Assembly (NCBI GenBank): GCA_034190875.2
Contig: CM067357.1
Span: 399,345-463,344, forward strand
Source: Urechis unicinctus
Taxonomy: Eukaryota > Annelida > Polychaeta > Xenopneusta > Urechidae
Length of the DNA: 64,000 nt
Reading direction: 5' to 3'
The notes under the pieces were generated by a model. It was not told where the DNA came from. It ran no database searches and was given only the letters and a program-made list of their open reading frames with translations. The position numbers and the translations under genes were made by a program. This document shows, piece by piece, positions 44,650 to 54,348 of the stretch (position 1 is its first letter; each line of letters begins with the position of its first letter).

Positions 44650-44825
44650 AGATAGCTTCCATGACTGAAAGGCTCTCCATGAATGTCATATTTTTAAGGT
44701 ATCTTACAAGTATGCGTTCCGATATGCCGAGTAAGACTGCTTCTATGACTGAAAAACTTTCCACAAATGTCACATTTGTAAGGTTTTTCACCTGTATGTG
44801 CTCGGATATGTTCCGTTAGATTACC
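44650..44825 (-). pseudogene. C2H2 zinc-finger gene relic, interrupted by the palindrome
   Basis: On the minus strand, [20 protein letters not shown] followed by [13 protein letters not shown] is a clear Kruppel-type finger with TGEKPY linker. The next finger is decayed (KYDIHGEPFSHGSYLTKHK, with a stop in the linker). Upstream of the first linker the finger helix (NLTEH) runs into the outer end of the palindromic repeat at about 44820. A zinc-finger gene therefore lies at the insertion or rearrangement point. Confidence 0.75.
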
Positions 44826-45855
44826 AACTTGTGTAATTATACCACAGATTCGTCAAGTCCGATTGATAACACAAACAACAGTATAACATTTATTGATATA
44901 TATTTCTAACTAACTAACGAGACTTCCATCTTCTTCCTACAAACACAACACTTTATTTTCTTTTTGTTTTAATCTCTAAGATTTACGCTTGAGTAATCTT
45001 CATCGCTAAGGGGACGCAACTCACAATGACTAATTTATCAAATCGTTTGACACGAAACGTTATCTAATTACGATAGAAGCGCTTCGTGAATTCGACAATA
45101 AGTAAATCACATTACCAACTTGTGTAATTATACCACAGATTCGTCAAGTCTGATTAATAACACAAACAACAGTATAACATTTATTGATATATATTTCTAA
45201 CTAATTAACGAGTCTTCCATCTTCTTCCTACAAACACAACACATTATTTTCTTTTTGTTATAATCTCTAAGATTTACGCTTGAGTAATCTTCATCGCTAA
45301 GGGGACGCAACTCACAATGACTAATTTATCAAATCGTTTGACACGAAACGTTATCTAACTACGAAAGAAGCGCGTCGTGAATTCGACAATAAGTAAATCA
45401 CATTACCAACTTGTGTAATTATACCACAGATTCGTCAAGTCCGATTAATAACACAAACAACAGTATAACATTTATAGGCATATATTTCTAACTAATTAAC
45501 GAGACGATCTTCTTCTTCCTACAAACACAACACATTATTTTCTTTTTGTTTTAATCTCTAAGATTTACGCTTGAGTAATCTTCATCGCTAAGGGGACGCA
45601 ACTCACAATGACTAATTTATCAAATCGTTTGACACGAAACGTTATCTAATTACGATAGAAGCGCTTCGTGAATTCGACAATAAGTAAATCACATTACCAA
45701 CTTGTGTAATTATACCACAGATTCGTCAAGTCCGATTAATAACACAAACACCGGTATAACATTAATTTATATCTATTTCTAACTAATTAACGAGACTTCC
45801 ATCTTCTTCCTACAAACAAAACAAATTATCTTTTTGTTTTAATCTCTAAGAATAA
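44820..45855 (-). repeat. 291-bp tandem repeats, left arm (about 3.5 copies)
   Basis: Unit starts (ATTACCAACTTGTGTAATTA) occur at 44820, 45111, 45402 and 45693, spaced 291 bp apart. Copies are 95% or more similar by eye. The unit has no reading frame. Confidence 0.95.
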
Positions 45856-45899
45856 GAAAGAGAGAAACCTGTTCAAGAGAATCTTAAGCTTTTCTTGCG

Positions 45900-46360
45900 C
45901 TCACGCTAGGTCAGGTGTGGTTTAATGGGTTGTCTGCATACAAAGAAAATATACTTACAACATATACAAAAGTCAACAAATCTATACCACGATGTATCCT
46001 GTTTAAAACGAATACTCCTTCAAAATCACCTTGATCCGGTTGGTAGGGGTCGAGATGAATCCTGGCCATTCGCCAGTGGCATCTACTACACTCTCAAACT
46101 GTTTGTATTAAATATTTGTTATACCCATTGTTCTTCCCTATTCAGGTTGGAAATAGTTTTTGTCACCGGATCTGGATACTTCCATGTACAAAATTTCGAT
46201 GTTTTGGGATCAGTGGAAACAACATGGTGTCTATATATGTGTACCATAATTATTGTTCTGACAAATAATTTCAGATGAAAACTATTTTCAAATAAACCCA
46301 CCAACCGCTATTTGTAACCCATAACTCCACCCTAAACTCTGACAATTACATTCACCAGCA
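45900..46360 (-). pseudogene. Degenerate copy of the central gene, left arm
   Basis: On the minus strand this arm encodes pieces such as MVHIYRHHVVSTDPKTSKFC (near 46240-46180) and DATGEWPGFISTPTNRIKVI (near 46080-46020), homologous to MEHIYANHYLTSDPTKSRFY and GVTGAYPGYISAPIKWVKVI of the central gene. The two pieces are in different frames with stops between them. It is the mirror of 52255-52640. Confidence 0.7.
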
Positions 46361-46945
46361 AGCTGAATTCCAAATGAGAGTTACAAAACTCTTCCTTCGA
46401 ATTAAAATTTATTCAGTATATTATGACAAGTCTCCTGTAATTTTCATTCATCAGTAACTGAATACCGCCATGGTATTAATTTTCATTCACGTGCAAACTA
46501 AAGTCAAAATAAGAATTTGTTACCAGTTTGCTTCAAACTGTTAAATACTATTTCACTGACAGAGGCCGTATGCCAAACAAATGAATAGAAATTTCTCAAC
46601 ATCATTAACCCGTTCAAAGATCGATTTATTAATCTCTTCAACAAAGTTTCAATAAAATCAGGTGAAAACTCGCGTCGTCAAGTCTCGCTATCCAGTACTT
46701 AGTTATAGTAATGTTGAGGGTCATAATATCTTAATAAAAAAAATGGCTGTCTGAAAATAGTGAATAAACAAAGACTATTATATTCACATATAATATTTGT
46801 TGGGTTAGTTACATTTCCTTTTTCTTGTGGAACATGTTTAATTAGGATGGCCTTACAGAAACCGTATCTCCAATTACAGAAAAATTAAATGACCCTTAGA
46901 TTATGACAATTAAATAAAACAACGACATCATGGACAGACAAATCC

Positions 46946-52254: not shown

Positions 52255-52640
52255 TTGGTGGGTTTATTTGAAAATAGTTTTCATCTGAAATTATTTGTCA
52301 GAACAATAATTATGGTACACATATATAGACACCATGTTGTTTCCACTGATCCCAAAACATCGAAATTTTGTACATGGAAGTATCCAGATCCGGTGACAAA
52401 AACTATTTCCAACCTGAATAGGGAAGAACAATGGGTATAACAAATATTTAATACAAACAGTTTGAGAGTGTAGTAGATGCCACTGGCGAATGGCCAGGAT
52501 TCATCTCGACCCCTACCAACCGGATCAAGGTGATTTTGAAGGAGTATTCGTTTTTAAACAGGATACATCGTGGTATAGATTTGTTGACTTTTGTATATGT
52601 TGTAAGTATATATTTCTTTGTATGCAGACAACCCATTAAA
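52255..52640 (+). pseudogene. Degenerate copy of the central gene, right arm
   Basis: The frame 52255-52440 contains MVHIYRHHVVSTDPKTSKFC and EEQWV before a stop. In another frame, 52460-52620 encodes DATGEWPGFISTPTNRIKVI. The sequence ahead of it (GGGTTACAAATAGCGG and AATAGTTTTCATCTGAAAT) is also conserved at 49015-49065, so the 5' flank was copied with the gene. Confidence 0.7.
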
Positions 52641-52840
52641 CCACACCTGACCTAGCGTGAGCGCAAGAAAAGCTTAAGATTCTCTTGAACAGGTTTCTCT
52701 CTTTCTTATTCTTAGAGATTAAAAACAAAAAGATAATTTGTTTTGTTTGTAGGAAGAAGATGAAGACTCGTTAATAAGTTAGAAATAGATAGATAAATTA
52801 ATGTTATACCGGTGTTTGTGTTATTAATCGGACTTGACAA

Positions 52841-54236
52841 ATCTGTGGTATAATTACACAAGTTGGTAATGTGATTTACATATTGTCGAATTCACGACGC
52901 GCTTCTATCGTAATTAGATAACGTCTCGTGTCAAACGATTTGATAAATTAATCCTTGTGAGCTGCGGGGGGAAAGTGCTTAAGATTACTCAAGCGTATAT
53001 CATTGTCGGTCGATTTCCCAATCTCCTCAGAAATTAAACGATCATTTTGCTGAACTTTGCGCGAAAACGCGACAAAAGAACCCTTTTACTCATTGACTTT
53101 CGTCTTCTGTCAATGACTTAATAGTTAAGTAATACCTCATGTCAACGACCGGTTAACATTTTAGGGGTATTGTAGATATAAACACGAGATGGTGAACAGG
53201 ATTTTTTTGTTTTTGTTTTTTTTCTTACTCTTAGAGATTAAAACAAAAAGATAATAATTTGTTTTGTTTGTACGAAGAGGATGGAAGTCTCGTTAATTAG
53301 TTAGAAATATATGTCAATAAATGTTATACTGTTGTTTGTGTTATTAATCGGACTTGACGAATCTCTGGTATAATTACACAAGTTGGTAATGTGATTTACT
53401 TATTGTCGAATTCACGAAGCGCTTCTATCGTAATTAGATAACGTTTCGTGTCAAACGATTTGATAAATTAATCATTGTGAGTTGCGTCCCCTTAACGATG
53501 AAGATTACTCAAGCGTAAATCTTAGAGATTAAAACAAAAAGAAAATAATGTGTTGTGTTTGTAGGAAGAAGATGGAAGACTCGTTAATTAGTTAGAAATA
53601 TATATCAATAAATGTTATACTGTTGTTTGTGTTATTAATCAGACTTGACGAATCTGTGGTATAATTACACAAGTTGGTAATGTGATTTACTTATTGTCGA
53701 ATTCACGAAGCGCTTCTATCGTAATTAGATAACGTTTCGTGTCAAACGATTTGATAAATTAGTCATTGTGAGTTGCGTCCCCTTAGCGATGAAGATTACT
53801 CAAGCGTAAATCTTAGAGAGATTAAAACAAAAAGAAAATAATGTGTGTGTTTGTAGGAAGAAGATGGAAGTCTCGTTAATTAGTTAGAAATATATATCAA
53901 TAAATGTTATACTGTTGTTTGTGTTATTAATCGGACTTGACGAATCTCTGGTATAATTACACAAGTTGGTAATGTGATTTACTTACTTATTGTCGAATTC
54001 ACGAAGCGCTTCTATCGTAATTAGATAACGTTTCGTGTCAAACGATTTGATAAATTAGTCATTGTGAGTTGCGTCCCCTTAGCGATGAAGATTACTCAAG
54101 CGTAAATCTTAGAGATTAAAACAAAAAAGAAAATAATGTGCTGTGTTTGTAGGGAGAAGATGGAAGTCTCGTTAATTAGTTAGATCGGACTTGACGAATC
54201 TGTGGTATAATTACACAAGTTGGTAATGTGATTTGA
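52841..54236 (+). repeat. 291-bp tandem repeats, right arm (4-5 copies)
   Basis: Unit landmarks (ATCTGTGGTATAATTACACA) occur at 52841, 53361, 53652, 53944 and 54198. Spacings are 520, 291, 292 and 254; the first interval contains an extra 230-bp insert at 52990-53220 and the last copy is shortened. Confidence 0.93.
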
Positions 54237-54237
54237 T

Positions 54238-54348
54238 AAATTAATCCTTGTGAGCTGCGAGGTGAAAGTGCTTAAGATTACTCAAGCGTATATCATTGAC
54301 TTGAGTAATCTTAAGCACTTTCACCTCGCAGCTCACAAGGATTAATTT
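54238..54348. repeat. Perfect 49-bp hairpin at the right end of the palindrome
   Basis: Arms 54238-54286 and 54300-54348 are perfect reverse complements around a 13-bp loop (CGTATATCATTGA). The stem sequence is itself the tail of a 291-bp unit variant. It could form a stable hairpin in DNA or RNA. Confidence 0.97.

Follow-up and report, generated by a model that had tools for sequence, protein, structure and literature searches.

A mobile palindromic element with Polinton-type ends in the genome of Urechis unicinctus

The stretch analysed here, called the window, comprises 64,000 nucleotides of the genome of the annelid Urechis unicinctus (C16:399345-463344 in a 1.19-Gb genome assembly). It carries a complete arm of a palindromic mobile element at 48346-54349 on the plus strand, with the outer terminus of the element at 48346, the centre of symmetry at 54349 and the mirror arm absent at this location. 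The mobile unit opens with AGTAGTATATTTACG... at 48346, and its first 29 bp (48346-48374, plus strand, AGTAGTATATTTACGTGCCCCTTCACACC) form a terminus at which the flanks of 15 ends at nine loci diverge. Further inwards lies the region of a gene remnant, followed by an inner direct duplication (50500-51611, plus strand; 50500-51091 against 51023-51611, 95.6% identity) and by 3.3 copies of a 291-bp tandem repeat (53229-54184, plus strand), an array that adjoins the centre of the true palindrome. The centre of symmetry is a near-perfect hairpin (54236-54349), and the window arm terminates at the hairpin end. The folding energy of 54230-54349 is -88.6 kcal/mol with RNA parameters, and this segment is present between the two arms of a copy on contig C15. 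Window 48346-54184 and the C15 arm are 98.9% identical over 5856 bp.

To the left of the complete arm lies the inner arm of a second copy, truncated and inverted (44820-47995, minus strand). It corresponds to 53973 down to ~50518 and has neither the gene nor the terminus; its stretch 47955-47995 was assigned by reading. The two pieces are separated by 47996-48345, a G-run (24 G, 47999-48022) plus ~320 bp outside the element, for which no match to the fetched C15 arm was listed. Self-comparison of the window aligned 45562-47954 with 53001-50587 at 97.4% identity over 2421 bp, with neighbouring blocks out to 44820 and 54184, and located two tandem arrays of the 291-bp unit (44820-45851 and 53229-54184). 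An earlier note on this DNA had described a 9.5-kb foldback-like palindrome (44820-54348) whose arms carry outer 291-bp repeats and an inner duplication around a 2.5-kb centre with a spliced gene. The inverted arms, the 291-bp repeats in both of them and the inner duplication are real, but the element has other boundaries, as all nine other loci fetched have an end at 48346.

The architecture of the element becomes apparent from these other copies. A search with an arm probe, in which the best 40 of 969 candidates were scored, gave at least 44 matches genome-wide, a number far above chance that includes the two in the window itself; 43 were 94-100% identical and one short piece 81%. Twenty stretches covering nine loci were fetched and mapped onto the window. 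The element end fell at window 48346 in all nine (15 ends), and in seven of the nine the unit reverses at the 291-bp array or in the hairpin region, so that both orientations are present; C16b and C2 showed one orientation only within the part fetched. The shared order of the unit runs from 48346 through the gene region, the inner duplication and the 291-bp array to the hairpin at 54236-54349, and is then mirrored. In other words, the intact unit is an inverted dimer of ~7-13 kb; each arm carries a gene remnant and is ~5.9 kb long in the fetched copies. Five loci were complete at both ends, namely C4a (11,298 bp), C15 (13,013 bp), C17 (11,692 bp), C4b (12,925 bp) and C3 (11,104 bp). Because the other loci end at 48346 and turn at the 291-bp array or hairpin, the supposed 2.5-kb centre is the outer part of an arm; likewise, the supposedly outer 291-bp arrays sit at the true centre in the copies mapped onto the window. 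The end at 48346 and the 6-bp duplications in other copies rule out that the 9.5-kb palindrome is what moves. The arrangement in the window arose by later, local rearrangement and consists of one arm, broken at the hairpin centre, beside part of another copy.

The ends of the palindromes are highly regular. All five complete palindromes start with AGTAGT and end with ACTACT, and each is flanked by a perfect 6-bp duplication (CACGTT, CTGGCT, GGCTCC, CTCTCC and GGGCAC). The exact 29-bp terminus is found 78 times (37 forward, 41 reverse), spread over contigs C1 to C17, and a reversed-pattern control not at all; its first 17 bp occur exactly 113 times, against 1 in the control. Duplications were also tested by 20-base fetches at 20 of 21 further facing pairs of termini, leaving out C12:62509510. 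A perfect 6-bp duplication was present in 19 of these 20 pairs, all except C5:62471260/62482876, and hence in 24 of the 25 copies tested overall. As the 20 pairs were picked by their terminus, they test the duplication only and are no independent test of the end motif. Since each of the five fully fetched copies has its own 6-bp duplication, it is the palindrome itself that moves. Three further loci show local peculiarities. At C3:14778001-14808000 (L035-L037), half a palindrome is tandemly duplicated together with its right flank. At C16:11078001-11088000 (L026), a Gypsy-like element, recognised by reading and perhaps inserted there, immediately adjoins a palindrome arm on its inner side. At C2:72244947-72247632, two 17-bp termini face each other at a distance of only 2.7 kb and enclose a gene match, which makes this a possible miniature element.

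Ends of this kind are those of Mavericks (Polintons). According to PMC8097293, vertebrate Mavericks have 5'-(AGT)2//(ACT)2-3' ends, 6-bp duplications and a mean size of ~17 kb, and their end motif probably serves jumping-back in protein-primed replication. The end motif accepted for Polintons, (AGT)2//(ACT)2 or (AG)3//(CT)3, is present in the five palindromes that were found through their arms. The palindromes thus share end motif, 6-bp duplications and inverted terminal repeats with these Mavericks, and differ from them in being 7-13 kb long and symmetric throughout; no core gene was found in them. The agreement in ends and duplication length with what that source reports argues against the new class of mobile element that the earlier note had considered. 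Its view of a foldback-like, mobile and apparently non-autonomous element in which no transposase can be seen holds, and relatives of the element are numerous in the genome. Further copies in the same genome, whose absence it had named beforehand as the outcome that would count against the idea, were found at many loci.

What do the arms encode? The window arm contains, all on the plus strand, a 123-aa open reading frame (ORF; 49065-49436), which is a decayed exon whose part 49239-49345 is common to a ~16-kb element described below; a 175-aa ORF (49381-49908), where ~390 bp carried by the copies C9, C17 and C4b are absent at 49384/49385; and a small 91-aa ORF (50259-50534), which occurs in all five copies with listed ORFs and belongs to no Pfam or PHROGs family. 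The ~390-bp segment in C9 and C17 holds a start, MAGKRQLEAFND... A search with the gene region, in which the best 150 of 1112 candidates were scored, gave at least 150 relatives in the genome with 81-100% identity, mostly stop-free inside the match and with open frames of up to 248 aa. Adjacent matches in this set that lay at most 15 kb apart were facing (+-) in 36 of 40 pairs, with four -- pairs and no ++ or -+ pairs. In the window and C9 copies, the gene reading is broken across frames. A single host gene is ruled out, with at least 150 scored relatives, many of them in element context.

The identity of the gene was sought in Pfam, PHROGs, PDB sequences, a protein collection and IMG/VR, and nothing usable was obtained. 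The 123-aa ORF had no Pfam family above the cut-off and no candidate in the protein search, weak gene matches such as Proton_antipo_N fell below the cut-off, and AlphaFold2 modelling of the fragment yielded nothing informative (mean pLDDT 33.3). An apparent likeness of the fragment to the N-terminus of invertebrate Polinton PolB carries no weight here; an IMG/VR pattern search gave five stretches and no relatives. The palindrome ORFs tested had no PolB, ATPase or integrase family match above the cut-off, and the element is therefore at most a non-autonomous Polinton relative. What the earlier note took for a gene is a decayed 5' part of one, and the start of that gene is also carried by the ~16-kb element.

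The same ends also bound a second class of elements, which is likewise abundant. Among the 21 further facing pairs of termini, 11 (6,989-13,437 bp) hold a scored gene match, eight of them in both arms and facing, and 10 (11,668-17,903 bp) have neither a scored gene match nor an arm match. One ~16-kb copy, C16:41646513-41662822, was sampled in two pieces, L081 and L082, of 1750 bases in all. L081 lies 889-1788 bp from the left end. Its first 107 bases match window 49239-49345 (84% DNA identity; 86.8% over 49239-49352 in tblastx), and another part matches window 52542-52965 (81%). The piece ends in MAEKRQLEAFNDACKRSRPMSDADLLRAVE, the counterpart of the ~390-bp C9/C17 segment that is missing from the window copy. 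L082, which lies 972-1821 bp from the right end, has compact minus-strand ORFs and showed no convincing match in the window. One of these ORFs, of 78 aa, is complete; another, of 84 aa, contains a weak C2H2 finger that falls below the cut-off (PF13894, E 6.5e-4).

Both pieces are repeated many times in the genome. The L081 exon is stop-free in 149 of 150 scored copies (best 150 of 734), with an open frame of mostly 62-66 aa (range 51-293). The 78-aa ORF is stop-free in 148 of 150 (best 150 of 596), with 95-100% identity and 93 copies at one identical score, a near-identity that points to a young burst in the spread of the ~16-kb class. Eight of the ten pairs that lack a gene match have the L081 exon near one end, nine have the 78-aa ORF near the other and seven have both. 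Furthermore, the L081 exon was found 8.9-15.1 kb from L082 in the same orientation for 26 of 40 L082 copies (best 40 of 824), and never in the opposite orientation. This distribution means that the ~16-kb element is asymmetric and that the palindromes repeat only its L081 end. In other words, both arms of the palindrome correspond to one end of an asymmetric element, whose size of ~16 kb is close to the ~17 kb given for Mavericks in the paper cited above. At the start of contig C15 (7869, 17188 and 26503), three L081 exons follow one another every 9.3 kb, all in one orientation, possibly as a tandem array.

The ends, the 6-bp duplications and the two-fold symmetry recur in many copies, and we read the element as a mobile palindrome with Polinton-type ends that is moved in trans, with a probability of roughly 0.7. 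How could such a palindrome form? A replicating linear element with terminal origins may fold back or switch template, so that one end is copied onto both sides. The resulting symmetric form would be like the palindromic defective genomes of protein-primed replicons, and its replication and insertion would depend on Polinton-type enzymes that are supplied in trans and recognise the AGTAGT end. The symmetric recombinants of adenovirus, probably the closest parallel, are such genomes: they are palindromic and defective, carry one end of a protein-primed replicon on both sides and depend on a helper. The Urechis palindrome likewise has one end of a linear element duplicated on both sides; unlike the adenovirus recombinants, it is integrated at many places on the chromosomes and has diverged into subfamilies. 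Formation by folding back or template switching is less certain than the core claim of a palindrome moved in trans.

The search for the enzymes yielded results that weigh against this reading. No PolB, ATPase, integrase or capsid gene was seen inside same-ended elements, in searches that did not include the rve family and capsid models. None of 91 PF03175 matches (best 91 of 630) and none of 122 matches to the PolB type of the window (best 122 of 8499) fell inside 150 intervals set by the 78-aa ORF. The 40 intervals defined by L082 contained none of 147 ATPase matches (best 150 of 1062, three on small contigs dropped) and none of 84 PolB matches checked (of 91). On contig C1, for which the list of YxDTDS motifs is complete, the motif occurs in none of seven ~16-kb elements as against eight of ten PolB matches, and the ~16-kb class is thus possibly non-autonomous. 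It may lack a PolB or have a deviating one. Moreover, gene conversion of the Galileo type, as treated in PMC3573991, lengthens terminal repeats and could give the same end product. A search with PF00770 (protease) was uninformative, with no match in the elements or in the controls. Elements that bear PolB and ATPase with open frames are abundant in the genome, and Polintons with open PolB frames of >1000 aa, which may or may not share the palindrome's ends, are present.

The window itself contains a separate decayed Polinton at 11509-17082 on the minus strand, with other ORFs to 19185, in which PolB (PF03175, 4.5e-6) and a packaging ATPase (PF04665, 2.3e-9) were recognised. Its PolB family had 8499 first-look candidates, of which 122 were scored, some with open frames of >1200 aa. 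Comparison of this region with the palindrome gave no convincing similarity (best DNA match 18-24 bases, best protein E 0.009). An 84-bp repeat of 1.9 copies (44655-44810), which by reading encodes C2H2 zinc-finger-like units, ends ~10 bp before the inverted piece, and a LINE-like reverse transcriptase fragment (54504-55709; RVT_1, 1.5e-26 in 54504-55133) lies directly to the right of the element. Elsewhere in the window are a rhodopsin-type receptor ORF (36842-38107; 7tm_1, 1.8e-14) and, from reading of the translations, two Gypsy-like gag-pol regions (2588-7954 and 27918-31195).

Could the symmetry have arisen on the chromosome instead? A Polinton-ended palindrome might have become symmetric by chromosomal gene conversion or by template switching in host replication. 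This is the chief competing account of the symmetry, though the less likely route once Polinton-type ends are granted; the mobility of the palindrome is unaffected by it. In overlapping arm parts, the two arms of one element are 99.5-100% identical as against between-element means of 98.9-99.6%, a difference that favours gene conversion and is indicative only. However, the noisier alignment of whole arms (97.4-99.7% within elements, 94.4-99.8% between them) has no clear excess, and homogenisation within elements is not established. Local duplication does occur, as in the half palindrome of C3 repeated with the same flank. On the other hand, the symmetric form extends across relatives down to 81-85% identity, with pairs mostly facing, and the 6-bp duplication that each of the five fully fetched palindromes has of its own indicates that the palindrome moves as such. 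An assembly artefact, that is, a collapsed or misjoined inverted duplication, would be in keeping with the difficulty of assembling inverted repeats of 98-100% identity and with the asymmetry and 24-base G-run of the window copy. It has a negligible probability, as the termini lie on C1 to C17 in different flanks, 24 of the 25 copies tested are bordered on either side by a perfect duplication, and a Gypsy-like element was read beside one arm. For the family as a whole the artefact reading is refuted by the duplications, and a one-off artefact, which the earlier note had allowed for, is very unlikely with so many independent loci.

An improbable reading is that of a foldback from a cut-and-paste superfamily such as Mutator or P, whose arms grew longer through unequal exchange and gene conversion. 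The long, internally repetitive inverted arms resemble those of Foldback, Galileo and Tetris (PMC3573991, PMC4079207), as do the non-autonomous copies and the structural variability; Tm1 is another element of this type. A route for such lengthening exists in Galileo, where terminal repeats extend through TIR1-F1-F1-TIR2 and gene conversion is discussed (PMC3573991). Most foldbacks are thought to be Mutator-related, and Tetris has 8-10-bp target-site duplications (PMC4079207). Tested against this type, the palindrome has the long arms with internal tandem repeats, which lie at the inner arm end and hence centrally and not near the ends, but its duplication is 6 bp (24 of 25) and not 8-10 bp, and its ends are the (AGT)2//(ACT)2 of Mavericks. 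It is more improbable still that the element is autonomous and the arm gene a new transposase. The remnant recurs in a large family, mostly stop-free in the match, and a spliced gene could exceed the listed open frames. Yet these frames reach no more than 248 aa, neither the window copy nor C9 can be read through in a single frame, and no family match above the cut-off was obtained.

How novel is the element? Expansion of Polinton inverted repeats has been reported, as PMC3573991 mentions, and the mere length of such repeats is therefore no novelty. No report of a foldback element with Polinton ends was found among the open-access papers listed, judged mostly by titles and the openings of abstracts. 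The palindromic, one-end, probably helper-dependent form is a new variant, real and mobile, and not a new class of mobile element. At somewhat less than even odds, the palindromes may be Polinton satellites like defective-interfering genomes, that is, symmetric one-end replicons, passed on in palindromic form through several diverged subfamilies and numbering hundreds of copies, that compete with or parasitise full-length elements. Several transposon lineages have arrived at the foldback structure (PMC4079207). If the palindromes form in protein-primed replication, the genome archives defective replication products of a virus-like element. It would then be testable whether Polintons replicate extrachromosomally and support hyperparasites, and the young asymmetric class and the symmetric class, which share their ends and occur side by side in a single genome, provide a natural test set.

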